From a virus, in IMG/VR virus record IMGVR_UViG_3300031565_000077, positions 1 to 46,097 of that record: DNA of 46,097 nt. One strand, written 5' to 3'. The notes beneath the pieces were generated by a model, which did no database searches, was not told the DNA's origin, and saw nothing but the letters and a program-made list of their open reading frames with translations. The translations under genes were made by a program, and so were the position numbers. Of this stretch, positions 28,735 through 40,677 are shown piece by piece (the stretch's first letter is position 1; each line of letters opens with the position of its first letter).

Positions 28735-28899
28735 TTATATAATGTTTATATTATTTTTTTTTTGATTATAATATTTAGTAGTGTCAATAGGCATAATACC
28801 TAAGTCATTATAATATTTTAACATTTGTGCTGATAAATCTGAAGAAATTAAAGGTGGTTTGTATGTTTCAGGTTTTATATTTATACTGATATTTATCAT
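28735..28899 (-). CDS. Microprotein with MINI start
   Basis: 54 residues from the ATG at 28899. Begins MINISINIKPETYKPP, like many members of the microprotein array on the other strand, but lacks their C-terminal Leu-Tyr end. ATGA overlap with the upstream 53-residue gene supports it as a real coupled gene. Function unknown. Confidence 0.5.
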   Translation of the reverse strand: MINISINIKPETYKPPLISSDLSAQMLKYYNDLGIMPIDTTKYYNQKKNNINII

Positions 28900-29057
28900 A
28901 ATATATTTTTATTACCGTACATTACTAGATTTTCCATCTCTCTCATGTATTCTGCATGACGCCTTTTAATAATAGGACAAGTGTTCTTTAACCGTATGAT
29001 GTGTTTATTTATAGGTCTATAGGTTCTAGGCGTTGTGATAATGTTTATATTGATCAT
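28896..29057 (-). CDS. Basic microprotein with MINI start
   Basis: 53 residues, start ATG at 29057, basic (IIKRRHAEYMREM) with an N-terminal MININ repeat. First gene of the minus-strand block after the divergent region. A possible first-expressed late or middle gene. No family. Confidence 0.5.
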   Translation of the reverse strand: MININIITTPRTYRPINKHIIRLKNTCPIIKRRHAEYMREMENLVMYGNKNIL

Positions 29058-29348: not shown

Positions 29349-29504
29349 ATGTACACACTTAAAAATGTTATGAAGTATATTAATGATAACTTAGAAAAGG
29401 TATCTGAGATAGACAAGGACACTCTGTATAAATTAGTTAGAGAAGAACTAAGTAACAGAATTCAAAACAGGTTGCTATGTAAGTATATGGCAGATTTTGT
29501 ATAA
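29349..29504 (+). CDS. Early microprotein 1
   Basis: 51 residues, mostly helical and charged (YINDNLEKVSEIDKDTLYKL). It is first in the plus-strand block, downstream of the candidate promoter. Its leader has the TTATTAATTTTAAA pattern shared with later early genes. No family; a host-takeover role is inferred from position only. Confidence 0.55.
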   Translation: MYTLKNVMKYINDNLEKVSEIDKDTLYKLVREELSNRIQNRLLCKYMADFV

Positions 29505-29512
29505 TAATACTA

Positions 29513-29538
29513 TATAAGGGGAGTGTTCTTCCCTTATA
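29513..29538 (+). terminator. Hairpin between early genes 1 and 2
   Basis: TATAAGGG and CCCTTATA form a perfect eight-base-pair stem around a 10-base loop. It is not followed by a T-run, and its right arm overlaps the recurring CCCTTA leader motif, so it may be a processing or regulatory hairpin rather than a terminator. Confidence 0.45.
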
Positions 29539-29557
29539 AGTTTTAAAACTATATATT

Positions 29558-29731
29558 ATGGACAACAACGTTAAAGTTATATTAGAGATGGTTAGCACTG
29601 AACACTTAAGTAAGGTTCAGCAAAAGATTAACCAATGGATTACTATAGGGCACATTAAGAGCTGGAAGATTACTCCAGTTAACAGTGAGCTAGTACTAGT
29701 AGAGTACATAGTATTAAAGAGCGAGGTGTAA
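29558..29731 (+). CDS. Early microprotein 2
   Basis: 57 residues, N-terminal helix (VKVILEMVSTEHLSKVQQKI) followed by a beta hairpin (HIKSWKITPVNSELVLVEYI). An alpha-beta-beta fold of this size could be a small inhibitor or RNA-binding protein. Leader with CCCTTA at 29531, 22 bases before the ATG. Confidence 0.55.
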   Translation: MDNNVKVILEMVSTEHLSKVQQKINQWITIGHIKSWKITPVNSELVLVEYIVLKSEV

Positions 29732-29789
29732 TAACCTTGTTCTTTTTCCCTTATTATTTCTAAACTATTTATTATTTAAAACAATTATT

Positions 29790-29900
29790 ATGTTAACATT
29801 ATGTATTATGCCAGTATTCTCTGGTACAAGAAAAGAAAAGATTCAGACGTTAGCAGTGTTGTTAACTCTTGACATATTTGTAATGTGGATGTGTGCTTAG
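29790..29900 (+). CDS. Early microprotein 3
   Basis: 36 residues, the second half hydrophobic (LAVLLTLDIFVMWMCA), so possibly a membrane-associated peptide. The leader carries CCCTTA at 29748. The stop lies within the stem of the following terminator, which supports a real short gene. Confidence 0.45.
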   Translation: MLTLCIMPVFSGTRKEKIQTLAVLLTLDIFVMWMCA

Positions 29901-29918
29901 TGCATCCACATTCTTCTT
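29882..29918 (+). terminator. Intrinsic terminator
   Basis: AATGTGGATG and CATCCACATT form a perfect ten-base-pair stem around an 11-base loop, followed by CTTCTTCC. The stem overlaps the stop codon of the 36-residue gene. Confidence 0.7.
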
Positions 29919-29956
29919 CCCTTACTATTTTTAAATATTAATTAAAACTATATATT

Positions 29957-30163
29957 ATGAAGTATTTATTATTGATTAACTGGTGTGTACTTAGTATAGC
30001 CATGATTGTATTAGGCAGCGAAACTATGGCTGTTATAATGACAGGTATTAACGGGACAATATTATTGTTCTATTTAGTGCATGTTACAACGACTGAAGAC
30101 TTAGACGTTAGGCGTAAGCAGGTAGACAAACAGAGTAAAAACATATATAAGCCTCGTAAATAG
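29957..30163 (+). CDS. Early membrane protein
   Basis: 68 residues with two membrane segments at residues 3-20 and 23-43, and a basic C-terminal tail (RRKQVDKQSKNIYKPRK). It has its own CCCTTA leader (29919) and terminator. Small two-helix early proteins of phages can act in membrane take-over or superinfection exclusion; this is a generic possibility. Confidence 0.6.
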   Translation: MKYLLLINWCVLSIAMIVLGSETMAVIMTGINGTILLFYLVHVTTTEDLDVRRKQVDKQSKNIYKPRK

Positions 30164-30177
30164 GGGCTTATATTTTT
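30145..30177 (+). terminator. Intrinsic terminator
   Basis: ATATAAGCC pairs with GGCTTATAT around an 11-base loop, followed by TTTT. Begins within the end of the preceding gene. Confidence 0.75.
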
Positions 30178-30189
30178 AAATTAAAAGTT

Positions 30190-30459
30190 ATGAAAACAGT
30201 AACTGTATTAATGATGATGATGGGTTATATTTGTATAATAAATATAGCGTTATTATTATATATGGATAATAGATTTAAGGAGATTAGATCAGATATACAT
30301 ATAGACAAAACTGAACCTAAACATGACTACAAGGTAGACCTCAAGCCTAATTATATAATAGTTTATTCTAAAGGCGGTAACGTTGACACTATACCTTATA
30401 GTATAGACAGAGGTTGTATGTCACCTATTGAAGGTTTCTTTGAAAGAGATAACCTGTAA
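30190..30459 (+). CDS. Early membrane-anchored protein
   Basis: 89 residues. One N-terminal membrane segment (residues 3-25, many Met) then a charged soluble part with a beta strand (NYIIVYSKGGNVDTIPY). Follows the terminator at 30145 and has no CCCTTA leader of its own, so readthrough or an internal start is possible. Confidence 0.55.
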   Translation: MKTVTVLMMMMGYICIINIALLLYMDNRFKEIRSDIHIDKTEPKHDYKVDLKPNYIIVYSKGGNVDTIPYSIDRGCMSPIEGFFERDNL

Positions 30460-30472
30460 CAGGGTTGTCTTT
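30447..30472 (+). terminator. Hairpin terminator
   Basis: AGATAACC pairs with GGTTGTCT (one G-U) around an eight-base loop, followed by TTCCC. It overlaps the stop of the 89-residue gene and runs into the next CCCTTA leader. Confidence 0.55.
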
Positions 30473-30499
30473 CCCTTATTACCTCTAAAACTATATATT

Positions 30500-30637
30500 A
30501 TGAAGAAAAGAATAGTCTTAGACTTTATACCATTTAAACACTTCATGATCTTTGCACCTTGTGTAATAGAAGAAGTTGAAGGAGGTATGTTCTATAAGTA
30601 TAGAGCATTACAGAAAGTATTAATTATATATAATTAG
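30500..30637 (+). CDS. Early microprotein 6
   Basis: 45 residues from the ATG at 30500, chosen over an upstream in-frame ATG at 30428 because the latter lies inside the preceding gene and before its terminator. Beta-rich with FKHFMIFAPCVIEEVEGG. CCCTTA leader at 30473. Confidence 0.55.
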   Translation: MKKRIVLDFIPFKHFMIFAPCVIEEVEGGMFYKYRALQKVLIIYN

Positions 30638-30659
30638 AGAGCTTAGTGCTCTCTTTTTT
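30637..30659 (+). terminator. Intrinsic terminator
   Basis: GAGAGC, loop TTAGT, GCTCTC, then six T: a textbook terminator overlapping the last base of the preceding stop codon. Confidence 0.9.
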
Positions 30660-30720
30660 AAATATCTCGTGTTTTTCCCTTACTATTATTAAACTATTAT
30701 TTACTAAAAACCAAGAAATT

Positions 30721-30969
30721 ATGAGCACATTTGTTAGAGCAAAAATAGAAGGTCAAATGAGACTTCTAGAAAGATGTGATACAAGGAGTAAATCACACGT
30801 TAGAGTATTAAATGCTAATGGTATACCTGAAGAGATATTATCTGTAGATGATTATAAACCAGGTTATACTGTTATCACAGAACAAGTATATTTAGCCATT
30901 AGATATCAAGGATTAGTTAGTCCTGTATCTAGAGTAGCTAAAGGTATACTAGTAAAGCTATTGTTTTAG
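30721..30969 (+). CDS. Early small protein 7
   Basis: 82 residues from the ATG at 30721; the in-frame ATG at 30646 lies inside the terminator and is unlikely. Mixed alpha/beta, basic start (VRAKIEGQMRLLERCDTRSK), hydrophobic end (GILVKLLF). CCCTTA leader at 30677, terminator following. No family. Confidence 0.6.
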   Translation: MSTFVRAKIEGQMRLLERCDTRSKSHVRVLNANGIPEEILSVDDYKPGYTVITEQVYLAIRYQGLVSPVSRVAKGILVKLLF

Positions 30970-30978
30970 TATATAGTT

Positions 30979-31010
30979 GTAAACCGTGGGAAAGTTCTCG
31001 CGGTTTACTT
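30979..31010 (+). terminator. Extended hairpin terminator
   Basis: GTAAACCG and CGGTTTAC form a perfect eight-base-pair outer stem, and GGGAA/TTCTC an inner one. A stable hairpin after the 82-residue gene; no long T-run follows, so it may also be a stabilising 3' end. Confidence 0.65.
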
Positions 31011-31019
31011 AGTGTACTT

Positions 31020-31032
31020 AAAGATAGTCTAC
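31020..31032 (+). promoter_or_regulatory. Repeat AAAGATAGTCTAC, copy 1
   Basis: Identical 13-mer to 31340-31352. In both, TA precedes or CCCTCA follows within a few bases. It lies about 110 bases before the gene at 31142. A promoter box or activator site for a middle set of genes is possible. Confidence 0.35.
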
Positions 31033-31075
31033 AGCCCTCACTAATACTGATTTAATTTTAATTTAGTTAAATGCT

Positions 31076-31104
31076 GCTACTCTCTATAAGCTGTAGAGGG
31101 TAGC
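31076..31104 (+). terminator. Hairpin in leader before the 54-residue gene
   Basis: GCTACTCTCTA pairs with TAGAGGGTAGC (11 base pairs, one G-U), loop TAAGCTG. It is followed by only a short T run, and lies inside a 5' leader, so it may be an attenuator or a small RNA end. Confidence 0.5.
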
Positions 31105-31141
31105 ACAATTTTCTGACTAATACTAACTAATACACAAGCAT

Positions 31142-31306
31142 ATGAGCGACTTTAAAACATTTATTGTAAACATCATACTAGATAGCGGAGGAAAGCTCTC
31201 TGTTAGAAAGATGGCAAGAAGTAAGTATGAGGCTATGGACAAAGCTTATACTGAAATGAGTTCTAGACAACCAGATAGAACTAAATATATTGTTATACAA
31301 GCCTGA
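31142..31306 (+). CDS. Early microprotein 8
   Basis: 54 residues: beta strand FKTFIVNIILDSGGKLSVRK, then a helix (SKYEAMDKAYTEM) and a final strand (TKYIVIQA). A compact beta-beta-alpha-beta fold, conceivably an inhibitor. Leader contains the 31020 repeat. Confidence 0.55.
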   Translation: MSDFKTFIVNIILDSGGKLSVRKMARSKYEAMDKAYTEMSSRQPDRTKYIVIQA

Positions 31307-31325
31307 GATTATCTTGGGTTTGTAT
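31295..31325 (+). terminator. Hairpin terminator
   Basis: ATACAAGCC pairs with GGTTTGTAT (one G-U) around the loop. It overlaps the stop of the 54-residue gene. There is no long T-run. Confidence 0.55.
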
Positions 31326-31339
31326 ACAATAACTCTCAT

Positions 31340-31352
31340 AAAGATAGTCTAC
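31340..31352 (+). promoter_or_regulatory. Repeat AAAGATAGTCTAC, copy 2
   Basis: Second exact copy, 54 bases before the ATG at 31406, followed by TTCCCTCATTAATTTTAAA, which merges the repeat with the general early leader motif. Confidence 0.35.
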
Positions 31353-31405
31353 TTCCCTCATTAATTTTAAATTAATTATTTATTTATTATTTAAAAATCT
31401 TTATT

Positions 31406-31807
31406 ATGAAAGGTAGAAAAGTGAACGAGTACACTAAAAACGGGAATGTTGTTAGTGTTTTTGAATTAAGTGGAACGCCAGCAGAATTATCTGCATACGA
31501 GGCACACCAAGGTGCAAACTTTAGAGCGGACGAAGAAAGTGGAAAACCTTTGTTCTATGCTACTAAGCAAGCCAATGGTATCTATGAAGGTGACACTGTA
31601 GATATTACGTTTGTTGAAAAAGACGGTATTGGTTATATTATTGACCAAACTGAGACAAGACGTGTTAACCAGTTGTTAGAAAAGCACGCTGGAACAGCTC
31701 TTGGAAATGCTCTTGCTAGCCAATTGGCTAACGAAATGCTTGCTAAAGCTCGAGGTAAAGCTCCCGTGAAAGCAGCCCCTGTTGCACCTAGCTCTGGAGA
31801 AGAGTAG
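31406..31807 (+). CDS. Conserved-looking early protein with acidic C-terminus, possible ssDNA-binding protein
   Basis: 133 residues. Beta-rich core (NGNVVSVFELSG, GDTVDITFVEKDGIGYII), an Ala-rich helix near residues 95-113, then a Pro/Ala linker and SSGEE end. A beta-barrel-like core plus flexible tail with acidic tip is reminiscent of single-stranded DNA-binding proteins, but no OB-fold motif can be verified. It is the largest protein of the early block, with a double leader motif and the strongest terminator of the window, so it is likely made in quantity. Confidence 0.55.
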   Translation: MKGRKVNEYTKNGNVVSVFELSGTPAELSAYEAHQGANFRADEESGKPLFYATKQANGIYEGDTVDITFVEKDGIGYIIDQTETRRVNQLLEKHAGTALGNALASQLANEMLAKARGKAPVKAAPVAPSSGEE

Positions 31808-31828
31808 TAGAAGATTATTCTAGAAGAT

Positions 31829-31870
31829 AATAGTGTAATGCCTTCGGGTATTATGCTATTATTTTTTTTT
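31829..31870 (+). terminator. Very strong UUCG-loop terminator
   Basis: Fourteen base pairs (three G-U) close a CC-TTCG-GG tetraloop, followed by nine T in a row. It separates the early block from the microprotein array. Confidence 0.95.
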
Positions 31871-31943
31871 GATGAAGGGTCTTTATATATGCTAGACATA
31901 GCGGTGTGAAATAGCGGCGGGCGAGCGAAGCGAGGCTACCATC
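31871..31943 (+). other. GC-rich structured leader before the microprotein array
   Basis: GATG at the start pairs with CATC at the end. In between, ATAGCGG occurs twice (31898, 31911) and TAGC (31912) can pair with GCTA (31935) around a GC-rich segment. GC content is far above the surrounding sequence. No ORF. Possibly a leader RNA or small RNA for the array. Confidence 0.4.
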
Positions 31944-31970
31944 AGAAAGAATAATATATAATTAAACACT

Positions 31971-32105
31971 ATGATAAAATACTATAAGTTCCCATCAGGT
32001 AGAACATATCTTGTTATGTATAGACAAACGTATAGTAAAGTAACAACCATCTTTATATGCAACATAAATAATTATCGTATATATGACCATAACAGAAACT
32101 GGTAA
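31971..32105 (+). CDS. Array microprotein 1
   Basis: 44 residues, MIKYYKFPSGRTYLVMY start, three predicted beta strands. The end is DHNRNW, not the usual Leu-Tyr, which makes it the most divergent C-terminus. It is first in the array, after the structured leader. Basic (pI clearly above 9 by composition). Confidence 0.6.
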   Translation: MIKYYKFPSGRTYLVMYRQTYSKVTTIFICNINNYRIYDHNRNW

Positions 32106-32125
32106 TAAATTTAAACTATAACACT

Positions 32126-32251
32126 ATGATAAAATTACTCTCATATCGATTTAACCATTGTCTAAACTATTATCCTGAGATTACATGGCTTATTGAGATG
32201 CCTGTAAAATATGAACATATATGCACTTTTACCAGACGTAAACTATATTAG
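32126..32251 (+). CDS. Array microprotein 2
   Basis: 41 residues, starts MIKLLSYRF, ends TFTRRKLY. Contains two Cys (residues 12 and 33). Basic end. Confidence 0.65.
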   Translation: MIKLLSYRFNHCLNYYPEITWLIEMPVKYEHICTFTRRKLY

Positions 32252-32256
32252 CTCTT

Positions 32257-32388
32257 ATGATAAATTTGAAATTTAAAACTTATTATGGTGATTATACTTT
32301 GTATAGAGAGATGGATATTTATTATGAAAATACGTTTTATAGTAGATACTACTTAACAAGACGTGCTATTAAGTTACAACTATATTAA
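32257..32388 (+). CDS. Array microprotein 3
   Basis: 43 residues, starts MINLKFKTYYGDY, ends AIKLQLY. Ten Tyr in 43 residues, strongly beta. Five bases after the previous stop. Confidence 0.7.
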   Translation: MINLKFKTYYGDYTLYREMDIYYENTFYSRYYLTRRAIKLQLY

Positions 32389-32400
32389 ACAAACAACACT

Positions 32401-32544
32401 ATGATAAATATAAAAGCAGAGACACATAAATGGGGTATGATGATCCGGCTTAATGTAGAGAGCAACGCCATTATGGGGATATCATTATTTACATACTACA
32501 ACGATGCGCCAATAAAACCTACTAACAAATTTAATATGTACTAA
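32401..32544 (+). CDS. Array microprotein 4
   Basis: 47 residues, starts MINIKAETHKW; an internal APIK is followed by extra residues and a NMY end. Comparing with member 6, which ends APIKLHLY, suggests the C-terminus of this copy has shifted by a small insertion. Confidence 0.7.
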   Translation: MINIKAETHKWGMMIRLNVESNAIMGISLFTYYNDAPIKPTNKFNMY

Positions 32545-32545
32545 T

Positions 32546-32698
32546 ATGATAAAACTAGAATTTTATTTGTATAGACAGCATTTTGATAATATAACGGGTA
32601 TAACATTTGATCTGTGTATGGCCAAGTATAGGGATATATATGGGGAAGATTCTATATATATATTTGGTGACTTTTCAGTTCCTTTTCACTTATACTAA
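32546..32698 (+). CDS. Array microprotein 5
   Basis: 50 residues, starts MIKLEFYLYRQ, ends SVPFHLY. It begins one base after the previous stop and is more acidic in the middle (KYRDIYGEDS). Confidence 0.7.
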   Translation: MIKLEFYLYRQHFDNITGITFDLCMAKYRDIYGEDSIYIFGDFSVPFHLY

Positions 32699-32714
32699 AA
32701 AATAAAACAATACT

Positions 32715-32891
32715 ATGATGAATATAAAAGCTAATGTATTAGAAGGGTATTTTAAACAAAATCATGATAGTTATAGAGGGTTTGATATATATTTAGAACT
32801 TCTAATAAAAAGTTATACTGGTACTAAGGAAGTGAATTATAGATATATCTTTGTATTTCCTAATGCTCCAATTAAACTTCACTTATACTAG
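32715..32891 (+). CDS. Array microprotein 6
   Basis: 58 residues from the first of two adjacent ATGs (MMNIKANVLEGYF); the second gives the canonical MNIKA. Ends APIKLHLY. One of the longest members. Confidence 0.7.
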   Translation: MMNIKANVLEGYFKQNHDSYRGFDIYLELLIKSYTGTKEVNYRYIFVFPNAPIKLHLY

Positions 32892-32896
32892 AATAT

Positions 32897-33046
32897 ATGA
32901 TAAATATAAAGTTGATTAGTTATAGGAGTTTACCTTTTTCTGGGTTTACTACCACTATTTTATTAGATCTTAAACTAGATAATGGATTAAATTATAGAAA
33001 CATTACATATGTAACACCTGGGTACATCCCTTTAAAACTTTACTAA
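32897..33046 (+). CDS. Array microprotein 7
   Basis: 49 residues, starts MINIKLISYRS, ends YIPLKLY: a canonical member at both ends. The middle has an alternating Thr/Ile/Leu strand (TTTILLDLKL). Confidence 0.75.
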   Translation: MINIKLISYRSLPFSGFTTTILLDLKLDNGLNYRNITYVTPGYIPLKLY

Positions 33047-33047
33047 T

Positions 33048-33200
33048 ATGATGAATATAAATATACATGATATTACATACAGCGGAAAAGTATATCTAAC
33101 TTACGGAGCTTTGCCTATAAGCTTCATAACAGTAATATGTTTAACATATCACCGTAATTATTATACTAAACGTAACCATAGACTATATACATATGATTAA
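33048..33200 (+). CDS. Array microprotein 8 with extended C-terminus
   Basis: 50 residues, starts MMNINIHDITYSG. The usual RLY is followed by TYD before the stop, and that extra end overlaps the start of the truncated member at 33193. Loss of the original stop by mutation probably added the tail. Shares VICLTYHRNYY with members 10 and 13. Confidence 0.65.
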   Translation: MMNINIHDITYSGKVYLTYGALPISFITVICLTYHRNYYTKRNHRLYTYD

Positions 33201-33237
33201 TATAAAAGCACTAAATGTGAGTCTCCACCGTGTGTAA
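33193..33237 (+). pseudogene. Truncated array member
   Basis: Starts with the canonical MINIKALNVS but stops after 14 codons, where the array continues into a non-coding insert. A decayed member, or a copy interrupted by the insert. The start overlaps the tail of member 8. Confidence 0.55.
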
Positions 33238-33325
33238 CAAGTTGACTCAGCCCAGTGTTTATGCGGTGTTCATTTTTTAACAAGTGTTAAATATGGGTAT
33301 AATACCTGCTAAAAACAGATAAATT
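33238..33325 (+). repeat. Non-coding insert 1 in the array
   Basis: Eighty-eight bases without an ORF. AGTGTTTATGCGGTGTT at 33254-33270 nearly repeats 33473-33488 in the second insert. GTATAATAC may form a small stem. TGAGTC/GACTCA flanks it. Confidence 0.45.
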
Positions 33326-33466
33326 ATGATAAAACTTATTACTTTTTTTGATAATTATGGGACATATACGCATTATTCAGGTTATTTAGACGTATATGGT
33401 GGTTACTATGTGAGTATACTTAATATACCTGTTAGATTATATAATATTCCTAATGAAAACTCATGA
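33326..33466 (+). CDS. Array microprotein 9 with extended C-terminus
   Basis: 46 residues, starts MIKLITFFDNYG. The usual VRLY is followed by seven more residues (NIPNENS) that run into the second non-coding insert; the tail looks like sequence read after loss of the original stop. Confidence 0.65.
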   Translation: MIKLITFFDNYGTYTHYSGYLDVYGGYYVSILNIPVRLYNIPNENS

Positions 33467-33554
33467 AACCCTAGTGTTTATGGGTGTTGCAGACTGCACG
33501 TGAAAACCACCTACATAAAACATCACTTTAAACTCTTTCTAAAAACCACTCACT
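33467..33554 (+). repeat. Non-coding insert 2 in the array
   Basis: Eighty-eight bases. AGTGTTTATGGGTGTT at 33473 repeats insert 1 and can pair imperfectly with CACC...CATAAA...CACT further on, giving a long hairpin. Both inserts are the same length and lie after a damaged member. Confidence 0.45.
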
Positions 33555-33707
33555 ATGACAAGTATTAATATAGCTAAACATGACTACTTATGCATAATGG
33601 TCATCAATAGAAAGACCAGAATACGTATGTGTCTAACAACTTATCATAGTGACTATCGTAACTATCATACACTGTTTATTTATACTAAGCTTTATTCTGA
33701 GTATTAG
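33555..33707 (+). CDS. Array microprotein 10
   Basis: 50 residues, starts MTSINIAKHDY; TKLY is followed by SEY at the end. Contains LTTYHSDYRNYH, matching the VVTYHTTAYYPRHH of member 13. Confidence 0.65.
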   Translation: MTSINIAKHDYLCIMVINRKTRIRMCLTTYHSDYRNYHTLFIYTKLYSEY

Positions 33708-33708
33708 A

Positions 33709-33750
33709 TAAACCGGGATTATTTACTCACCACTAACACTTATATATACT
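33709..33750 (+). repeat. Duplicated leader TAAACCGGG, copy 1
   Basis: TAAACCGGGATTATT followed by CACCACTAA and ACTTATAT before the ATG at 33751. A near-identical leader precedes the next gene at 33923, and a shorter form starts at 34152. It indicates tandem duplication of whole gene-plus-leader units. Confidence 0.5.
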
Positions 33751-33915
33751 ATGTACAAAATTAAAATTAAAAAAAGCGTTAGTCTTCGTTCTTCTCATTA
33801 TCTTGTTATTCGAAGAACTTTTCGACCTGATTTTACTAATGATATAATATGTTTTATAAATTACTCTTATGATACTAGAAGTTTATATTATGCATCTAAG
33901 GTTAATCCTTACTAG
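33751..33915 (+). CDS. Array microprotein 11, paralogue of 12
   Basis: 54 residues, starts MYKIKIKKSVSLRSSHY, ends ASKVNPY. Shares K-I-K-x-x-KS-x-x-x-RS-x-HY, a central I-x-C-x-IN, and SK-x-N-x-Y with member 12. Very basic. Confidence 0.7.
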   Translation: MYKIKIKKSVSLRSSHYLVIRRTFRPDFTNDIICFINYSYDTRSLYYASKVNPY

Positions 33916-33922
33916 TCTACAG

Positions 33923-33960
33923 TAAACCGGGATTATTCATCCACCACTAAAACTTATATT
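33923..33960 (+). repeat. Duplicated leader TAAACCGGG, copy 2
   Basis: TAAACCGGGATTATT then CCACCACTAA and ACTTATATT before the ATG at 33961; about 80% identical to copy 1 by eye. Confidence 0.5.
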
Positions 33961-34146
33961 ATGCATAAAATTAAATTCAGCAAAAGCACTAAAATTCGTT
34001 CTTGTCATTATATCACTATCAATAGAGGTTATCATACAGGTTATAGTTATGAGGTAACAGATTATAATTATGAGATAATGTGTATGATAAATAACTGTTA
34101 TAATCCTATAAGTATATATGATGTATCTAAGATTAATCTTTACTAG
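33961..34146 (+). CDS. Array microprotein 12, paralogue of 11
   Basis: 61 residues, starts MHKIKFSKSTKIRSCHY, ends DVSKINLY. A seven-residue insertion in the middle (TGYSYEV) distinguishes it from member 11. Similar leaders show the duplication included the promoter-proximal DNA. Confidence 0.7.
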   Translation: MHKIKFSKSTKIRSCHYITINRGYHTGYSYEVTDYNYEIMCMINNCYNPISIYDVSKINLY

Positions 34147-34191
34147 TAGGGTAAACCGGGAATCTATAAAATTTCATTTAAATAAACAAAC

Positions 34192-34365
34192 ATGAGCTAT
34201 ATAAAAATCTACATAGGTAACTATCGTTTTGAAAAGCATATAGCGTACACGCTTATGCATGTAGTAACTTACCATACAACTGCTTACTATCCTAGACATC
34301 ATTTCTTTATTAACAATAATTATAGTAATGATATAGTAAACCCAGAAATTAAATATTATGAATAA
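34192..34365 (+). CDS. Array microprotein 13
   Basis: 57 residues, starts MSYIKIYIGNYRF, ends PEIKYYE. His-rich centre (HVVTYHTTAYYPRHHFF). The stop overlaps the start of member 14, allowing coupled translation. Confidence 0.65.
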   Translation: MSYIKIYIGNYRFEKHIAYTLMHVVTYHTTAYYPRHHFFINNNYSNDIVNPEIKYYE

Positions 34366-34468
34366 TTCATATATAATTATAAACTGTCTTACATATAATG
34401 ATAATATCACGTTTTATATGAGAAATAATGACCCAAAATATATTAAAATTTACCTTAAACCATACTAA
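34358..34468 (+). CDS. Array microprotein 14
   Basis: 36 residues, starts MNNSYIIINCLTYN, ends IYLKPY. Shortest of the canonical members; the first strand is very hydrophobic. Eight bases overlap with member 13. Confidence 0.6.
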   Translation: MNNSYIIINCLTYNDNITFYMRNNDPKYIKIYLKPY

Positions 34469-34497
34469 ATAATATTAACTAGAAATCTCACTTAATT

Positions 34498-34680
34498 ATG
34501 AATTTAAACTTCGAAATACAAGATGAAGGTCCTATAGTATATGGTTATATGTGTTTAAATATTGTTAATTATAAATGGTTAGGTGATCCTACTATGCATA
34601 TGATTATTGTTAATAATATTTATTTTGTTTATAATGAAAGACACGATATATATCATCGGGGTTTACTTAAACTATATTAA
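34498..34680 (+). CDS. Array microprotein 15
   Basis: 60 residues, starts MNLNFEIQDEG, ends RGLLKLY. Contains a hydrophobic strand MIIVNNIYFVY. It is more acidic at the N-terminus than most. Confidence 0.7.
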   Translation: MNLNFEIQDEGPIVYGYMCLNIVNYKWLGDPTMHMIIVNNIYFVYNERHDIYHRGLLKLY

Positions 34681-34681
34681 A

Positions 34682-34822
34682 ATGAAAAACTACATTAGAA
34701 TACATTGTCGTGAACCTTTTGGTGTTGCTATTAGTATATACGATAATAAAATAGGATATTATACGTCTTATAAAAATTATTATTTTAAGTATGCAAATAA
34801 ATCGCTTAAATTATATAGCTAA
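34682..34822 (+). CDS. Array microprotein 16
   Basis: 46 residues from the ATG at 34682, one base after the previous stop; a longer frame from 34607 would overlap the previous gene and is rejected. Starts MKNYIRIHCREP, ends KSLKLYS. Confidence 0.65.
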   Translation: MKNYIRIHCREPFGVAISIYDNKIGYYTSYKNYYFKYANKSLKLYS

Positions 34823-34833
34823 AATTAAATATT

Positions 34834-35043
34834 ATGAATGTACTTAAGATAAACATATATAATAAAGCTCTAATGAGAAATCATAATAGACATAATAATT
34901 CTAATCCTTTTAGTATAAATTATCTAACAATAGTTTATAATTATGGGTTTAAAGAGAATAATGCTATTACTTTCGAGTATACACCTTGTATAAATGGATA
35001 TAAACCTAACCAAGGAATCATTGACTCTTTTAAACCTTACTAA
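34834..35043 (+). CDS. Array microprotein 17
   Basis: 69 residues, the longest member. Starts MNVLKINIYNKA, ends IDSFKPY. A basic, Asn/His-rich stretch (RNHNRHNNSNP) near residues 15-25 looks inserted after the first strand. Confidence 0.7.
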   Translation: MNVLKINIYNKALMRNHNRHNNSNPFSINYLTIVYNYGFKENNAITFEYTPCINGYKPNQGIIDSFKPY

Positions 35044-35052
35044 CTAAACATT

Positions 35053-35205
35053 ATGATAAATATCAGGATGTTATCCAGCGAGAAATATGGGTGGAAAATA
35101 ACAGACAAAATTTATAATAGCCGTATACGAGTATTTATTACTCGTAAAATTGCTAGAACATACTTTACAGGAAGACTTAAAGAAACTAATACTAAATTAT
35201 ACTAA
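35053..35205 (+). CDS. Array microprotein 18
   Basis: 50 residues, starts MINIRMLSSEKYGW, ends TNTKLY. Basic (ITRKIARTYFTGR). Only two bases separate its stop from the next start. Confidence 0.7.
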   Translation: MINIRMLSSEKYGWKITDKIYNSRIRVFITRKIARTYFTGRLKETNTKLY

Positions 35206-35207
35206 TT

Positions 35208-35354
35208 ATGATTAAACTAGATATAGTAATACATAACGAATACATAGACATATATGATTCAATAGAAAATCATCGTAGGTATGATTTATTTAATGGGTCG
35301 CTCTTTAGATTTAACTATGATAATCTTGAATACATAGCCATAAACTTATATTAA
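35208..35354 (+). CDS. Array microprotein 19, paralogue of 24
   Basis: 48 residues, starts MIKLDIVIHNEY, ends EYIAINLY. Shares DLFNG in the middle and the EYI-x-x-N...LY end with member 24. Acidic compared with neighbours. Confidence 0.75.
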   Translation: MIKLDIVIHNEYIDIYDSIENHRRYDLFNGSLFRFNYDNLEYIAINLY

Positions 35355-35356
35355 AC

Positions 35357-35497
35357 ATGATAAAATTAATAATAGAAGACACTTTAGTGTATGATTTTAC
35401 TTATAAAGGTTATAAATGGTACGTAAAAGGGGAGTTTGTATATGGTAATATACAACGTTACATAGTTACTATTGATAACTTTGAACTTTACGATTAA
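35357..35497 (+). CDS. Array microprotein 20
   Basis: 46 residues, starts MIKLIIEDTLVYDF, ends NFELYD (one extra residue after LY). Central GYKWYVKGEFVYG strand pair. Confidence 0.7.
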   Translation: MIKLIIEDTLVYDFTYKGYKWYVKGEFVYGNIQRYIVTIDNFELYD

Positions 35498-35508
35498 CTC
35501 AACTAATT

Positions 35509-35667
35509 ATGGGCAGTTATATAAAAATATTTTACTTAGTACCCCGCTATATAAGAATAATAACACCTTGTAGTAATTTTTACACCCTTATAGAAGAAAT
35601 AAGTGAAGAAGACAAGGAAACAATAGCAGATAATTTAATGATAAAAAATTTTAAAATATATGACTAA
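35509..35667 (+). CDS. Array microprotein 21
   Basis: 52 residues, starts MGSYIKIFYLVPRY, ends NFKIYD. An acidic helix (IEEISEEDKETIADNL) in the second half is unlike the beta pattern of the others. Overlaps the next gene by eight bases. Confidence 0.65.
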   Translation: MGSYIKIFYLVPRYIRIITPCSNFYTLIEEISEEDKETIADNLMIKNFKIYD

Positions 35668-35824
35668 AAATACATATATAAAACTAAAAATAAAATCACC
35701 TTATTATGTAAGCGCTATAAAATATCCTGAAGATTATCTGGCTCATCGTATAATGGCTTTTTATATAAACAGATTATATCAATATCATGAATTAAACGGC
35801 AGAATGTATTTAAAACTTTATTAA
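35660..35824 (+). CDS. Array microprotein 22
   Basis: 54 residues, starts MTKNTYIKLKIKSPYY, ends RMYLKLY. The YIKLKIK strand is the family's N-terminal motif shifted five residues inward. Confidence 0.7.
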   Translation: MTKNTYIKLKIKSPYYVSAIKYPEDYLAHRIMAFYINRLYQYHELNGRMYLKLY

Positions 35825-35825
35825 C

Positions 35826-35972
35826 ATGATTAATCTTGAATTTAAAATAATAGAAGACCAACCATTCAATGTAATATACGCCTATAAATATATTATAGTA
35901 AACTGGGATCATGGTGGGTTTAGTGCCCTTAAAATAATGACTATTACTATAAATAGAAGCTCTTTATACTAA
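35826..35972 (+). CDS. Array microprotein 23
   Basis: 48 residues, starts MINLEFKIIEDQ, ends INRSSLY. One base after the previous stop. Trp and Gly-rich turn (NWDHGGF) in the centre. Confidence 0.7.
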   Translation: MINLEFKIIEDQPFNVIYAYKYIIVNWDHGGFSALKIMTITINRSSLY

Positions 35973-35995
35973 GCTTTTAAAAACAATAAAAACAT

Positions 35996-36163
35996 ATGAT
36001 TAATATACGATTAAACAAGTCTGACAATAAATTAGACATATGGTTGGATGATTTTTCAAATTTTTCTATAGACTTATTTAACGGGAAATACCTTTTAACA
36101 TATTTTACAGTGGATGAATACATCGTGGTTAATGCCATAAGATTATATAGTATTAATTCATAA
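35996..36163 (+). CDS. Array microprotein 24, paralogue of 19, extended end
   Basis: 55 residues, starts MINIRLNKSDNKLDIW; IDLFNGKY and DEYIVVNAIRLY match member 19, then SINS follows before the stop. Confidence 0.75.
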   Translation: MINIRLNKSDNKLDIWLDDFSNFSIDLFNGKYLLTYFTVDEYIVVNAIRLYSINS

Positions 36164-36178
36164 TAAAACTAATTTAAC

Positions 36179-36340
36179 ATGACTAACAGGTACATTTATC
36201 CTCTACCTTCTATATATATTAAACTTAATAATATTTACAAACAATCTTCTCTTATGAATTATTCATACGATTGTTACTTTATGCTTGTTTACTTTAAAAA
36301 TATAAGTGTACTTAATCAAAAAATGTTTAAACCTTATTAA
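36179..36340 (+). CDS. Array microprotein 25
   Basis: 53 residues, starts MTNRYIYPLPSIYIKL, ends QKMFKPY. Like member 22, the IYIKL strand is set back from the start. Confidence 0.65.
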   Translation: MTNRYIYPLPSIYIKLNNIYKQSSLMNYSYDCYFMLVYFKNISVLNQKMFKPY

Positions 36341-36341
36341 T

Positions 36342-36452
36342 ATGAGAATATTTTATATAGACAACGATGACATAATTATTATAAAATCACTTATTTGGCT
36401 TATATATGAAGAAAGTGATTATGAATATAATAAGTATGTTCAATGCTATTAA
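36342..36452 (+). CDS. Array microprotein 26
   Basis: 36 residues, acidic (YIDNDDIIIIK, YEESDYEYN), ends YVQCY. Short and off-pattern at the start (MRIFYI), but packed one base after its neighbour. Confidence 0.55.
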   Translation: MRIFYIDNDDIIIIKSLIWLIYEESDYEYNKYVQCY

Positions 36453-36463
36453 ATTAAATTAAC

Positions 36464-36640
36464 ATGATAAATTTAAAATTTTTTGTAAAAGATGAGATAA
36501 CCTTAAACTTAGTGTTATACGGAGTTGACGAGTATACTGACATATTATTAGATCACTACGGGCATCAAGCGGTTTTTATAATATTTAGTAATAGTACTAG
36601 TGCATATCATGGGGAATTATCCGGGTTAAGACCTTACTAA
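36464..36640 (+). CDS. Array microprotein 27
   Basis: 58 residues, starts MINLKFFVKDE, ends LSGLRPY. Alternating hydrophobic strands (TLNLVLYGV, AVFIIFSN). Confidence 0.7.
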   Translation: MINLKFFVKDEITLNLVLYGVDEYTDILLDHYGHQAVFIIFSNSTSAYHGELSGLRPY

Positions 36641-36651
36641 ACGTATAACAT

Positions 36652-36789
36652 ATGATAAATTTAAAATTAAGAAAATACTCTAGAGATATACGTATGCATT
36701 TTTATGATCCTTATGCTTATGGTTTTTTTGTAACTACAGGAGGACCTATGACTACAGTATTTAGAATGAAACCCATGAGACTATATTAA
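36652..36789 (+). CDS. Array microprotein 28
   Basis: 45 residues, starts MINLKLRKYSRD, ends KPMRLY. Last intact array gene; a decayed tail encoding H-N-L-R-L-Y-stop follows at about 36793-36813 without a start. Confidence 0.7.
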   Translation: MINLKLRKYSRDIRMHFYDPYAYGFFVTTGGPMTTVFRMKPMRLY

Positions 36790-36811
36790 CATCACATAAT
36801 TTAAGACTTTA

Positions 36812-36979
36812 TTAAATAGATATACAGAAGATATAATGGATATTGAAAGGAATCACTTAATCCCGGATTTGATCACCGAGACCACCAGTGATACTCTGTT
36901 GAGGGCCCTGCTCTGTTTTGCAAGACATCAGGCATAGGGTAATAACCTATAGTAAAACCCAAGAATCATATCTATTTAA
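36812..36979 (+). ncRNA. Structured RNA candidate with 12-bp closing stem
   Basis: TTAAATAGATAT at 36812-36823 pairs perfectly with ATATCTATTTAA at 36968-36979, enclosing 144 bases. Inside, ATCAC/GTGAT and ATAGG/CCTAT can form hairpins, and the sequence is more GC-rich than its surroundings (GAGGGCCCTGC). No ORF. Perfect long-range complementarity in an AT-rich phage strongly suggests a folded RNA. Confidence 0.5.
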
Positions 36980-37030
36980 ATAATAAACCTCAGACAAAGA
37001 TCTGCTGCTAGATAGGAAAGTCTAGTATTT

Positions 37031-37107
37031 CGCAACAAAGCTCTTTAAGGGTTAGGTTGACACGTCTAAATAATATGACAGGGCTAGTTTGAATCTAGCT
37101 GTTGCGA
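37031..37107 (+). tRNA. tRNA-like element, possibly degenerate
   Basis: 77 bases. CGCAACA at the start pairs perfectly with TGTTGCG near the end, followed by an A discriminator. Just inside, GCTAG-TTTGAAT-CTAGC forms a five-base-pair T-arm with a seven-base loop (C56 replaced by T). The length fits a tRNA. However, the D-arm is weak, the anticodon stem has a C-A mismatch, and its loop (CTAAATA) gives an odd AAA anticodon. CCA is not encoded. A decayed tRNA, an unusual tRNA, or a tRNA-like RNA. Confidence 0.35.
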
Positions 37108-37149
37108 CTATATAAAATAAAACTAAATTTTAAACTAAAATTATAAACA

Positions 37150-37443
37150 ATGGAATTAGTAAAAAATAAATTATACAAGGTAAACGGATATATACATGAT
37201 TATTATTTTAGATACTCTCACTTAAATGAGTCTGACGCTGTAGTTCCTGTTAAAAAATTTTATTTAAAAAACGGTGAAGAGAAACCTTATATTGTTGATA
37301 GTGCATTATATGATCCTAATCGAAATTATCCTATAAGAGAAATGACTAATTCTGAAGTTATTAGATTTCTTAAAGCAGAAAAAGAATATTTTGGTGAGAA
37401 TTATGGTACTACAAGTAATATACAAGAATTAGACATATTTTAA
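37150..37443 (+). CDS. Accessory protein with ELDIF tail (1)
   Basis: 97 residues: beta-rich start (VKNKLYKVNGYIHDYYFRY), a helix (TNSEVIRFLKAEKEYF), and the tail NIQELDIF. The tail pattern [ELT]-L-[DES]-I-F ends five more proteins of this arm. The body resembles a small SH3-like barrel plus helix. Function unknown; clamp or other partner binding through the tail is inferred. Confidence 0.6.
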   Translation: MELVKNKLYKVNGYIHDYYFRYSHLNESDAVVPVKKFYLKNGEEKPYIVDSALYDPNRNYPIREMTNSEVIRFLKAEKEYFGENYGTTSNIQELDIF

Positions 37444-37461
37444 AATTAAATAAAACTTATT

Positions 37462-37689
37462 ATGTTAAAAAAAGGAGATAAAGTAATTATAACAAGAAGA
37501 GCAACATACTCTGAAGGACGTAGTTGTAGCTGCCAGTGGATGCCAGCTATGGACAGATACATTGGTAAAACCTTGACTGTACAGGATATTAGTCCATATG
37601 GAAATCCTTGTTTTAAAGAGACTGGTCTTTATATACCAAGTGTAGTAGTGGAGAAAGCATCAATAATAGAAGAACTAGATATATTTTAA
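37462..37689 (+). CDS. SH3-like accessory protein with ELDIF tail (2)
   Basis: 75 residues. Starts KKGDKVIITRRATYSEG; shares GD-x-V-x-I, W-x-x-x-M, IGK and V-x-D-I with the protein at 42457, so the two are paralogues. Ends IIEELDIF. The KGDKV...IGK pattern suits a small SH3-like barrel. Contains a CSC motif. Confidence 0.6.
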   Translation: MLKKGDKVIITRRATYSEGRSCSCQWMPAMDRYIGKTLTVQDISPYGNPCFKETGLYIPSVVVEKASIIEELDIF

Positions 37690-37693
37690 AATT

Positions 37694-37867
37694 ATGAGTA
37701 AAAAAGTAGAAATAACAATAAGTGAAATGCAGTTAAACGGAACTACTGCAATAAGAATAATGAAATGCTTAAAAGAACACGAACCCGAAATATGGCACGA
37801 ACTTAAAGAAACGCTAAAGCAAAAATTACCTATAAACATATTCCAGAAGAGTTTAAATAAACTATAA
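37694..37867 (+). CDS. Small helical protein
   Basis: 57 residues, helical (TTAIRIMKCLKEHEPEIWHE, LKETLKQKL) with a short N-terminal strand (KKVEITISEM). No tail motif. It starts four bases after the ELDIF gene stop, so it is in the same transcript. Confidence 0.5.
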   Translation: MSKKVEITISEMQLNGTTAIRIMKCLKEHEPEIWHELKETLKQKLPINIFQKSLNKL

Positions 37868-37870
37868 ATT

Positions 37871-38146
37871 GTGAAATTAAAAATAAAATCATTAAATAAA
37901 AAACATTACGTTGATCGTGACGAATTAATGTTACATGCTTGTTTTCAGATATTACAAGATTATATTGAAAAAGAAAAAGGTGATACTCACTGTGATTATA
38001 AAGCCAACAAAGAGTTTGTAGATGAGATAAGATTTCTAAATAAATGGTGGAAAAAACGTAAAAAACCAAAGTATTCTGATGATGATGCACAAGATGACGA
38101 AATGTTATTAAGACTAATGAAAATTAGACTTCAGTTATGGACTTAA
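37871..38146 (+). CDS. Small helical protein, GTG start
   Basis: 91 residues beginning at a GTG at 37871 (three bases after the previous stop). Contains YVDRDELMLHACFQILQDYI and FLNKWWKKRKK, then an acidic stretch. I have a weak memory of similar phrases in other Bacteroidota phage proteins; function unknown. Its stop codon forms part of the following closing stem. Confidence 0.55.
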   Translation: MKLKIKSLNKKHYVDRDELMLHACFQILQDYIEKEKGDTHCDYKANKEFVDEIRFLNKWWKKRKKPKYSDDDAQDDEMLLRLMKIRLQLWT

Positions 38147-38251
38147 TCAGGTGCTGAGACGGACGCTTCGTAGACCTTTTGGTGCAGGGTAGGTAAGACT
38201 ACTTAGGCATAATCTATCATTGAGACCCGCGTTCTTGATAGAACCTGATTA
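38144..38251 (+). ncRNA. Structured RNA candidate with 9-bp closing stem
   Basis: TAATCAGGT at 38144 pairs perfectly with ACCTGATTA at 38243-38251. The interior has GAGAC at both sides, an ACG-CTT-CGT hairpin, and GTTCT-TGAT-AGAAC just before the closing strand. No ORF. Similar general design to 36812-36979: a single long-range stem around a compact GC-richer core. Confidence 0.5.
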
Positions 38252-38272
38252 TTAATTAAAATCTTAGAAATT

Positions 38273-38467
38273 ATGGAAAATACAAATTGTTATAAATGTA
38301 AACATAGAAGAGAGGTTCCTGGTAGTGCTCATAGTGCATGTTCTAAACCAGATCCTGAGATGACAGGACATGAGCATGGAAAGAAAAATGGATGGTTTAA
38401 TTATCCTATAAACTTTGATCCTGTGTGGAAAACAAAGGAATGTATTAATTTTGAACCAAAAGATTAA
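38273..38467 (+). CDS. Small Cys-rich zinc-binding-like protein
   Basis: 64 residues. CYKC (residues 5-8), then CSKP, and a final ECINFE, giving four cysteines in the pattern C-x2-C...C...C typical of small zinc ribbons, with H and K around them. Begins after the closing stem of the RNA. Function unknown. Confidence 0.55.
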   Translation: MENTNCYKCKHRREVPGSAHSACSKPDPEMTGHEHGKKNGWFNYPINFDPVWKTKECINFEPKD

Positions 38468-39161
38468 ATTATATACATCTGGAATTAATCAGGTTAGAAT
38501 AAGTGTTATAATGTATTGATACTATTAATATTGTGTTGTATTACACACGTTTGGCAACTACGTATAAGTTGTTGTGAGCAAAACCCTTATCTCACATAAA
38601 TCAAAGATAACCTACCAGTAATGGTAAAGATTGTAATTATGGCAGTATAGGAAGGACGAAACTACAACAGTTAAGACACGCCAGAAGTAAGGGCTGTGTA
38701 TTAAGTTATACAGTATTTAAACCGAGAATTTGAGTTTACCAGTCTCTATATGTTTAAACCTGTTATAAAATTACAATTAGGAATAGATGCAACTGTATTA
38801 GTATAATGAGTCTCACAATTTTAAAGTTTAGCAAGGTGAGAACATAACTGTTAGCCAGTGATACTAAATGAGATATGTTGCTTAGTGAATTAGGAAGATA
38901 ATCTTAATATGATTATAAGGCTCTTGGATTTAATCGCAAGAAAGGATAATTCACACTATTGGGAGTTCTCAGCAAGTAGTTATAGTGAAGCTGTAAAAAT
39001 ATGATTAAGGTAAAGGTTTACCTCATATTAAGTTCCTAGGAATTAACAGAAACCTCGAAAGACCCGAAGTAACTACGTGACCGTACCAAGTAATGTTGAC
39101 GGTGCTAATAATAGGGTCACACGTATTAGGAATTACCATTGTTTATACTTATATTTGTAAT
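38468..39161 (+). ncRNA. About 690-nt hairpin-rich region, candidate large structured RNA
   Basis: No ORF of note, stops in all frames, GC richer than coding sequence around it. Hairpins: AGGTTA (38491)/TAACCT (38608); TACCA-GTAA-TGGTA at 38613-38626 with a GNRA loop; TCTCAC (38811)/GTGAGA (38836); AACATA (38841)/TATGTT (38874); ATAATC (38898)/GATTAT (38911); AATATGA (38998)/TCATATT (39023) enclosing GGTAAA/TTTACC; GTGACC (39077)/GGTCAC (39115) enclosing GTACC/GGTGC. An HNH endonuclease gene follows. A giant phage RNA of the ROOL/GOLLD type, or a group I intron, are alternatives I cannot test. Confidence 0.45.
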
Positions 39162-39593
39162 ATGAAAAATAAAAGATTATATAATATCTATAATGGTATG
39201 AAGCAAAGATGTAATAACCCTAATCACAACAGTTATAGTTATTATGGAGCTAAAGGAATAACTGTAGAATGGGTTAATTTTGAAGGTTTTGAAATTTGGG
39301 CATTATCTAATGGATATGCTGATGATCTAGAAATTGATAGATTAAATTCAGCATTAAATTATTGTCCTTCTAATTGTAGATGGGCTACTAGACAGATTCA
39401 AAATAGAAATGCAACTATTAGAACTACTAATAAAACAGGAGTTAAAGGTTGTTACTATGAAAAAAGAGCTAGTAAATATAGACAGCAAATCAAAGTTGAT
39501 GGTAAAAATATATCATTAGGATATTTTGAAACTATTGACGAATGTAGGATTGCAAGAGAAACTTATATTGAAGAAAATAATATACTTAAATAG
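39162..39593 (+). CDS. HNH homing endonuclease with AP2 domain
   Basis: 143 residues from the ATG at 39162 (an earlier in-frame start at 39093 falls inside the hairpin region). Order: YNIYNGMKQRCNNP, then YSYYGAKGITV (the Y-x-x-YG-x-[RK]GI motif), EIDRLN (Asp 59), and CPSNCRWATRQIQNRN (HNH/beta-beta-alpha metal region). A DNA-binding AP2-type domain covers about residues 92-136 (GVKGCYYEKRASKYRQ...LGYFET). Such free-standing or intron-borne nucleases spread by cutting cognate sites. Placed right after a structured RNA. Confidence 0.8.
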   Translation: MKNKRLYNIYNGMKQRCNNPNHNSYSYYGAKGITVEWVNFEGFEIWALSNGYADDLEIDRLNSALNYCPSNCRWATRQIQNRNATIRTTNKTGVKGCYYEKRASKYRQQIKVDGKNISLGYFETIDECRIARETYIEENNILK

Positions 39594-39597
39594 TGAG

Positions 39598-39652
39598 GCA
39601 CCCTACTCTTATGACCTCTGCGTTGTATGTTAAGATGTAAGAAAGAGGGTGC
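39598..39652 (+). other. Stem-loop after the endonuclease gene
   Basis: GCACCCT (39598-39604) pairs with AGGGTGC (39646-39652), with TCTT/AAGA inside. It starts five bases after the HNH stop. It may be the 3' boundary of the structured RNA or intron-like element. Confidence 0.45.
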
Positions 39653-39684
39653 TAATACTAATTATTAATCTAAAACTTAAACAG

Positions 39685-39840
39685 ATGGAAGATATTAAAA
39701 ATAAGTTAGAAAATTACAAAGAAGAATTGAGAAGGCAAAAAGCCTCAAGACTTAAGAAAGGTGATATTACTAAAGGTAAACACATTAGAAAGTTAGAGGC
39801 GAAAGTAAAATTATATGAAGACTTTTTAAACGCTGAATAA
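39685..39840 (+). CDS. Small coiled-coil protein
   Basis: 51 residues from the ATG at 39685 (an upstream in-frame start at 39649 lies in the hairpin). Charged helix throughout (ENYKEELRRQKASRLKKGD). Its leader (ATTATTAATCTAAAACTTAA) is repeated before the next gene. Confidence 0.5.
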   Translation: MEDIKNKLENYKEELRRQKASRLKKGDITKGKHIRKLEAKVKLYEDFLNAE

Positions 39841-39852
39841 TTTTATTTATTA

Positions 39853-39876
39853 ATTATTAATCTAAAACTTAAACAA
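39853..39876 (+). repeat. Repeated gene leader, copy 2 (copy 1 near 39658-39684)
   Basis: TTAATTATTAATCTAAAACT and then TAAACA precede both this and the previous gene, just before ATGGAA. An identical-looking start region in two different genes suggests exchange or duplication of the 5' end. Confidence 0.45.
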
Positions 39877-40623: not shown

Positions 40624-40624
40624 T

Positions 40625-40654: not shown

Positions 40655-40677
40655 TTAATAATTCAAAACAAATAATT

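Follow-up and report, generated by a model that had tools for sequence, protein, structure and literature searches.

The subject of this analysis is a tandem array of small open reading frames (ORFs) at positions 31971-36789 of the IMG/VR virus record IMGVR_UViG_3300031565_000077, which was studied over its whole length of 46,097 nucleotides (nt; hereafter the window). The record is a 46-kb fragment of a virus, and the relatedness of its major capsid protein (MCP), portal and TerL marks a Crassvirales-type phage. The assignment comes from profile matches in PHROGs (MCP, phrog_11589, 3.5e-32; portal, phrog_6547, 1.7e-78; TerL, phrog_6681, 5.7e-57). TerL is ~24% identical to that of Flavobacterium phages, crAss-like records being also matched (tblastn), and 29 IMG/VR relatives share it at 57-61% identity (TerL scan). 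The structural block is encoded by the minus strand (564-28733). The non-structural side begins at ~29.3 kb and features a block of small genes on the plus strand (29349-44861). Two oppositely oriented blocks are also found in Crassvirales; the replication genes themselves lie outside the 46-kb fragment. The array is composed of 28 plus-strand ORFs of 36-69 amino acids (aa), all starting with ATG, that fill 4302 of its 4819 nt (89%):

31971-36789 (+), whole tandem array of 28 microprotein ORFs
31971-32105 (+), ORF 1, 44 aa, atypical end with RIY followed by DHNRNW
32126-32251 (+), ORF 2, 41 aa, ending RKLY
32257-32388 (+), ORF 3, 43 aa, ending LQLY
32401-32544 (+), ORF 4, 47 aa, ending FNMY
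32546-32698 (+), ORF 5, 50 aa, ending FHLY
32715-32891 (+), ORF 6, 58 aa, ending LHLY
32897-33046 (+), ORF 7, 49 aa, ending LKLY
33048-33200 (+), ORF 8, 50 aa, ending RLYTYD
33326-33466 (+), ORF 9, 46 aa, ending RLYNIPNENS
33555-33707 (+), ORF 10, 50 aa, ending KLYSEY
33751-33915 (+), ORF 11, 54 aa, ending VNPY, recent duplicate of ORF 12
33961-34146 (+), ORF 12, 61 aa, ending INLY, recent duplicate of ORF 11
34192-34365 (+), ORF 13, 57 aa, ending KYYE, overlaps ORF 14 by 8 nt
34358-34468 (+), ORF 14, 36 aa, ending LKPY
34498-34680 (+), ORF 15, 60 aa, ending LKLY
34682-34822 (+), ORF 16, 46 aa, ending LKLYS
34834-35043 (+), ORF 17, 69 aa, ending FKPY
35053-35205 (+), ORF 18, 50 aa, ending TKLY
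35208-35354 (+), ORF 19, 48 aa, ending INLY
35357-35497 (+), ORF 20, 46 aa, ending FELYD
35509-35667 (+), ORF 21, 52 aa, ending FKIYD, overlaps ORF 22 by 8 nt
35660-35824 (+), ORF 22, 54 aa, ending LKLY
35826-35972 (+), ORF 23, 48 aa, ending SSLY
35996-36163 (+), ORF 24, 55 aa, ending IRLYSINS, modelled as a five-strand beta meander (predicted local distance difference test, pLDDT, 65)
36179-36340 (+), ORF 25, 53 aa, ending FKPY
36342-36452 (+), ORF 26, 36 aa, ending VQCY
36464-36640 (+), ORF 27, 58 aa, ending LRPY
36652-36789 (+), ORF 28, 45 aa, ending MRLY

The spacing between neighbouring ORFs is mostly -8 to 45 nt, with two exceptions of 125 and 88 nt, and the distance from stop to next start is mostly 1-20 nt. 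The minus strand of the same stretch has three ORFs of comparable size. The GC content of the array is 26%, compared with 31% for the whole window. A hairpin parts the array from its upstream gene (31406-31807), and a likely additional member stands alone further downstream, whose stop codon can be followed after 1 nt by the ATG of the next gene:

31823-31866 (+), intrinsic-terminator-like hairpin
44152-44304 (+), probable solitary 29th member, 50 aa, N-terminus MNILRI, ending LLFNPY

One short motif, AGTGTTTATG with G-rich sequence after it, occurs in both large gaps of the array (33201-33325 and 33467-33554) and is perhaps a promoter or processing element.

The predicted products resemble each other at their two ends. 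Terminal columns were scored in bits (mean of random columns 0.53, 99.9% limit 1.03). The N-terminal consensus M-I-[NK]-[IL]-K-[IF] is a strand-like motif with I at N+2 (1.2 bits), N/K at N+3 (1.9 bits) and L/I at N+4 (1.4 bits). The C-terminal tag reads hydrophobic-[KRN]-[LP]-Y. When the sequences are anchored on this tag, position C-1 is Tyr in 27 of the 28 members (2.7 bits), C-2 is Leu or Pro in 22 (2.3 bits) and C-3 is polar in all 28 (K/R/N/Q/H/E/S; 2.1 bits), with Lys or Arg in 17; the residue that precedes this polar position is usually Leu, Phe or Ile. Hydrophobic and polar residues alternate in both terminal motifs in a strand-like manner. The information content is down to background ~7 residues from either end, and the middles have nearly no mutual similarity. 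ORFs 11 and 12 form the only clear pair (32 bits), and weak body matches of at least 9 bits are found in 10 directed pairs, a small excess over the 2.4 obtained with shuffled-middle decoys. As read from the sequences, the relatedness of the members rests mainly on the termini and is well supported. An earlier interpretation of this DNA, made from its letters without database searches (the sequence-only reading), had described 28 or more related small same-strand ORFs within 4.8 kb, with a common N-terminal strand motif, overlapping or nearly touching starts and stops, and very different middles, all of which agrees with the counts given here. Its description of a Tyr-ending C-terminus needs qualification: it is exact for 19 of the 28 tags and the tag lies at most three residues from the stop in 25 (exact cases included), whereas members 1, 9 and 24 bear it further in. 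A similar N-terminus is seen in two adjacent minus-strand ORFs (28735-29057, 53-54 aa) that start with MINISINI and MININI and have no Tyr tag.

The sequence-only reading also took the ORFs for real translated genes, a view that can be upheld with good confidence from several features of their sequence. In a null set of 200 dinucleotide-preserving shuffles of the array stretch the mean number of ORFs of at least 36 aa was 2.7 (maximum 7), compared with the 28 observed. The differences are sharper for ORFs with an [LPIMFYC]Y tag within three residues of the end (25 observed, 0.5 in shuffles, maximum 2) and for those ending exactly by [LP]Y (17 observed, 0.025 in shuffles, maximum 1). Frame +0 has the top codon score in 23 of the 28 ORFs, using scores trained on other genes, and compared with the other five frames their bodies have more D, E, G and N and less L (chi-square p=2e-26). 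The codons of the tag vary synonymously (Leu CTA 5, TTA 7, CTT 5; Pro CCT/CCA; Tyr TAT 15, TAC 12). The tag is kept at distances of both 1 and 45 nt to the following start codon, and so is not merely the ribosome-entry site of the following gene. Selection is, judging from the synonymous variation, the amino-acid bias and the in-frame gap that separates ORFs 11 and 12 (see below), acting on the protein. It is extremely unlikely, in our view, that the array is a series of non-coding repeats or of recombination units (RNA repeats, cassette borders) in which frames stay open by chance. DNA repeats of 14-47 nt do occur around starts and stops, but they correspond mostly to ATGAT-AA starts and KLY-stop ends and are degenerate at the codon level; the excess of open frames over shuffles, the in-frame indel, the gaps ranging from -8 to 125 nt and the lack of any Rfam hit inside the array also speak against it. 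Integron-like cassettes were rejected, since the junctions, equally variable in length and with synonymously varied ends, show no conserved DNA site between cassettes. Stop-codon recoding was rejected as well: most members stop at TAA, and the standard code gives long structural genes.

A second C-terminal tag, L-[DES]-I-F, is shared by six small plus-strand genes found downstream of the array, whose bodies are otherwise unrelated:

37150-37443 and 37462-37689 (+), two small genes, tag ELDIF
42457-43520 (+), four small genes, tags LEIF, LEIF, LEIF and LSIF

The array tag and the second tag have the same order, namely aliphatic, polar, aliphatic and aromatic at the carboxyl end. They could be a common docking signal or the last strands of small beta domains. 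The first of these options leads to a reading, possible if on balance doubtful, in which the C-terminal hydrophobic-polar-[LPI]-[YF] sequence would be a short linear motif recognised by a single common partner (a chaperone, a protease, or a hub protein of the phage or host), the bodies would be diverse cargo and the six L-[DES]-I-F genes would carry the same or a sister address. The occurrence of one end pattern in two gene sets with unrelated bodies in a single phage favours this reading, as does the position of the tag, near the C-terminus in most members despite the 36-69 aa range of lengths. Furthermore, in locus L099 (contig 3300013101_000046), a relative discussed below, three adjacent genes at the equivalent place (14731-15641) end with IDYIKF, IDFIKF and IDYIKF. 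Against it, the pattern is also accounted for by a final beta strand in a shared domain, the three atypical array members have several residues after their tag, the charge of the tag differs between the array (K/R) and the second set (D/E), and no reader of the tag is known.

The fold of the products was approached by AlphaFold modelling of two members with the family supplied as alignment. Both models are all-beta meanders, with mean pLDDT of 65 and 51, and are of low confidence. Comparison of the better model to viral models with Foldseek gave no match at E 0.001. VIA-align Z scores reach at most 6.0, to halves of lipocalin-type barrels and to unrelated sheets, and reflect only a common arrangement. 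A hydrophobic-moment test on the bodies detected no strand or helix periodicity beyond that of shuffles (z about 0.4). A common beta scaffold is therefore something we infer from these weak models and from the pattern of the motifs.

ORFs 11 and 12 provide a view on how members may arise. They differ by a single in-frame gap of 21 nt, their coding sequences are 73% identical and their leaders 89%:

33709-33745 (+), leader of ORF 11, 89% identical to the ORF 12 leader, marks the duplicated unit
33923-33959 (+), leader of ORF 12, copy of 33709-33745
34152-34168, third, weaker leader copy

For this pair, the one alignable pair, the ratio of nonsynonymous to synonymous substitution rates (dN/dS) was estimated at 1.5 (bootstrap interval 0.7-4.5), which establishes divergence at the protein level but does not establish positive selection. 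The fast divergence put forward in the sequence-only reading thus finds support in this value and in the scant similarity of the bodies, but the interval spans neutral evolution. Adaptation against host defences or to varied host targets is only a plausible proposal drawn from position and pattern.

The claim that the array has no known counterpart holds in all searches carried out. The array DNA gave no match to phages and plasmids, and tblastn with the joined members, at a threshold of E 10, none in 50,697 phage records. Comparison of the 28 members to PHROGs, Pfam and PADLOC yielded nothing significant (best E 0.021, one member per family), and a profile search of the PDB with the members no match at E 10. 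IMG/VR scans with ORF 12 and with the adjacent gene 31406-31807 had no match; a scan with a conserved neighbour found one contig only, that of loci L099 and L115. A profile of the array recovered 13 places in its own window, a control by construction only, and no member in 20 related records (15 TerL relatives and 5 others), many of which are fragments, so that this absence is weak evidence. L099 is the only syntenic relative found. The homologues of 31406-31807 and 43548-44024 are there 2.3 kb apart, compared with 11.7 kb in the window, and no array lies between them, which makes the array an accessory block of this lineage. DNA patterns of the junctions were also scanned in IMG/VR and genome contigs. 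Among the matches listed, 218 loci (1.75 Mb) were examined with an ORF-chain detector and none contained an array of this kind; they had at most 5 chained small ORFs, compared with 13 in the array, and at most 3 with Y/F ends, compared with 8. The detector found no similar array in 194 other loci. As the genome-contig matches are those listed, the absence of arrays elsewhere is not proven. Phages are known to have early blocks of small genes that are unrelated to each other; neither the databases nor the papers searched yielded a 28-member array of paralogues whose ends are conserved and whose middles are unrecognisable.

The absence of the array from its relative, the weak similarity of the bodies, a composition near that of random AT-rich DNA and a dN/dS not different from 1 would also suit a near-neutral, transient gene nursery. 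The ORFs would then be translated and mostly dispensable, duplicating and drifting, their frames maintained by a weak selection that favours soluble and harmless products, and their termini would reflect translation signals and recent common origin. We consider this distinctly unlikely because the tag is conserved as residues with synonymous variation, 28 frames are kept open and the products are enriched in D, E and G.

None of the recognised structural genes is on the plus strand, that of the array (MCP, portal and TerL are on the minus strand). This is consistent with the split of Crassvirales genomes into replication and structural halves described in one report (PMC10136315). In crAss001 the early, middle and late modules follow ORF orientation (PMC8375218). 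The array is on the strand that in Crassvirales carries replication and regulatory functions, and early expression is proposed from strand and position only. The orientation bears also on whether the array products are carried in the virion, as internal or ejected proteins that have a packaging tag, similar to the internal proteins of T4. A large set of small and diverse proteins with one terminal peptide in common would suit capsid targeting, and crAss virions contain cargo proteins (PMC10136315). However, structural and most crAss cargo proteins are transcribed late (PMC10136315), which together with the opposite strand makes a virion location very improbable. The capsid-targeting peptides of T4 are N-terminal and cleaved. 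T4-type internal proteins do resemble the array in that their bodies vary and a short terminal peptide is common to them, but the array tag is C-terminal and its genes are opposite to the structural block; the array (plus strand) is not co-oriented with the structural genes (minus strand), as would be expected of genes for packaged proteins of this type.

The explanation that we prefer, with about even confidence, is that tandem duplication has produced, in this lineage, a set of small accessory proteins made of beta strands, with conserved termini and a diversified middle, which are probably expressed early and directed at the host. The array would be a family of 28, probably 29, beta-rich microproteins of ~50 residues, encoded in a Crassvirales-type phage by the strand with the non-structural (replication/early) genes. 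A common scaffold and/or docking end would be provided by an amphipathic strand at the N-terminus (I-N-[IL]-K-[IF]) and by a strand plus tag at the C-terminus (hydrophobic-K-[LP]-Y), between which the middle could diverge freely. Early co-transcription from a point upstream of 31971 is probable, and the packing of the genes makes translation coupling possible. New members may originate by duplication of a unit including the leader, as seen for ORFs 11 and 12, followed by fast divergence of the middle. The products might form an accessory, host-directed repertoire for take-over or counter-defence, each with its own target surface on a common frame. Small accessory phage genes are usually host-directed, and the assignment of such a role to the array is made by analogy with them. 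The fold, timing, target and function of the array products are all features that we infer. Several observations weigh against this explanation: the array is present in one genome only; the dN/dS of ORFs 11 and 12 is not distinguishable from 1; AT-rich DNA would yield a similar composition; the models are of low confidence, the C-terminal third of the second being below 50 pLDDT; the bodies have no excess of amphipathic periodicity, so that their folding is not supported by sequence; and early expression was deduced solely as said above. A diversified effector repertoire is rather improbable. It would consist of dozens of paralogous microproteins whose terminal strands are constant and whose middle is hypervariable, with an address tag at the C-terminus; units would be duplicated and diverge rapidly, and a second gene set of the same genome would use a sister tag.

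The lineage-specific accessory set that we favour has likenesses in several known systems. The host-takeover module of SPO1 and the early accessory regions of T4 are early small-gene blocks of lytic phages. They have in common with the array dense same-strand tiny genes in a non-structural region, without database relatives and presumed host-directed, and the array is indeed such a dense cluster outside the structural block, 89% coding. Their genes are mostly unrelated, whereas the 28 ORFs have the look of one duplicated family through their shared N- and C-terminal motifs. The diversified paralogue arrays of large eukaryotic viruses, such as the multigene families of African swine fever virus and the gene accordions of poxviruses, also stem from accessory genes that were duplicated in tandem and then diverged; the array differs by its ~50 aa members, its location in a double-stranded DNA phage and the conservation of the termini only. 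Anti-CRISPR and anti-defence arrays likewise group very small orphan genes, which differ from one close phage to another, and anti-CRISPR proteins are suspected among the small orphan genes of crAss-like phages (PMC7886860). Anti-CRISPR clusters are made of unrelated genes, and shared termini, present in the array, are not one of their features. No helix-turn-helix protein (Aca-type regulator) was found among the ten neighbouring genes scanned with Pfam, a result that covers those ten genes only. Phages carry many small orphan genes that are normally unrelated to each other. If 28 paralogues keep only their ends, the array would show how orphan genes arise by duplication and then lose detectable similarity, and would give a testable system of a constant frame with a variable middle covering many host targets. 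The parallel C-terminal tags in unrelated neighbours suggest a shared reader that could be fished with one peptide.

Other elements are found on the 3' side of the array. The N-terminal part of a 166-aa ORF (39093-39593, plus strand) resembles by eye an HNH/AP2-type homing-endonuclease-like protein (YNGMKQRCNNPNHNSYSYYGAKGITVEW), with no Pfam match at E 0.1. Directly 3' of the array there is a freshwater-1 RNA (RF02979; 36824-36960, plus strand) that scores 50 bits, under the gathering score of 72. This RNA lies within 400 nt of same-strand tRNA genes in 45 of 48 IMG/VR loci (L008-L055), with spacings mostly of 105-114 nt to the upstream tRNA and 50-72 nt to the downstream one. The conserved RNA runs ~85 nt further 5' than the Rfam model, and its extended form has two extra helices (12 pairs), most pairs with compensatory changes on both sides. 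A tRNA-like fold at 37030-37107 (plus strand), not called by ARAGORN or Rfam, has a 7-bp acceptor-like stem and the T-arm GCTAG-TTTGAAT-CTAGC; it is possibly a degenerate tRNA of a former cluster.

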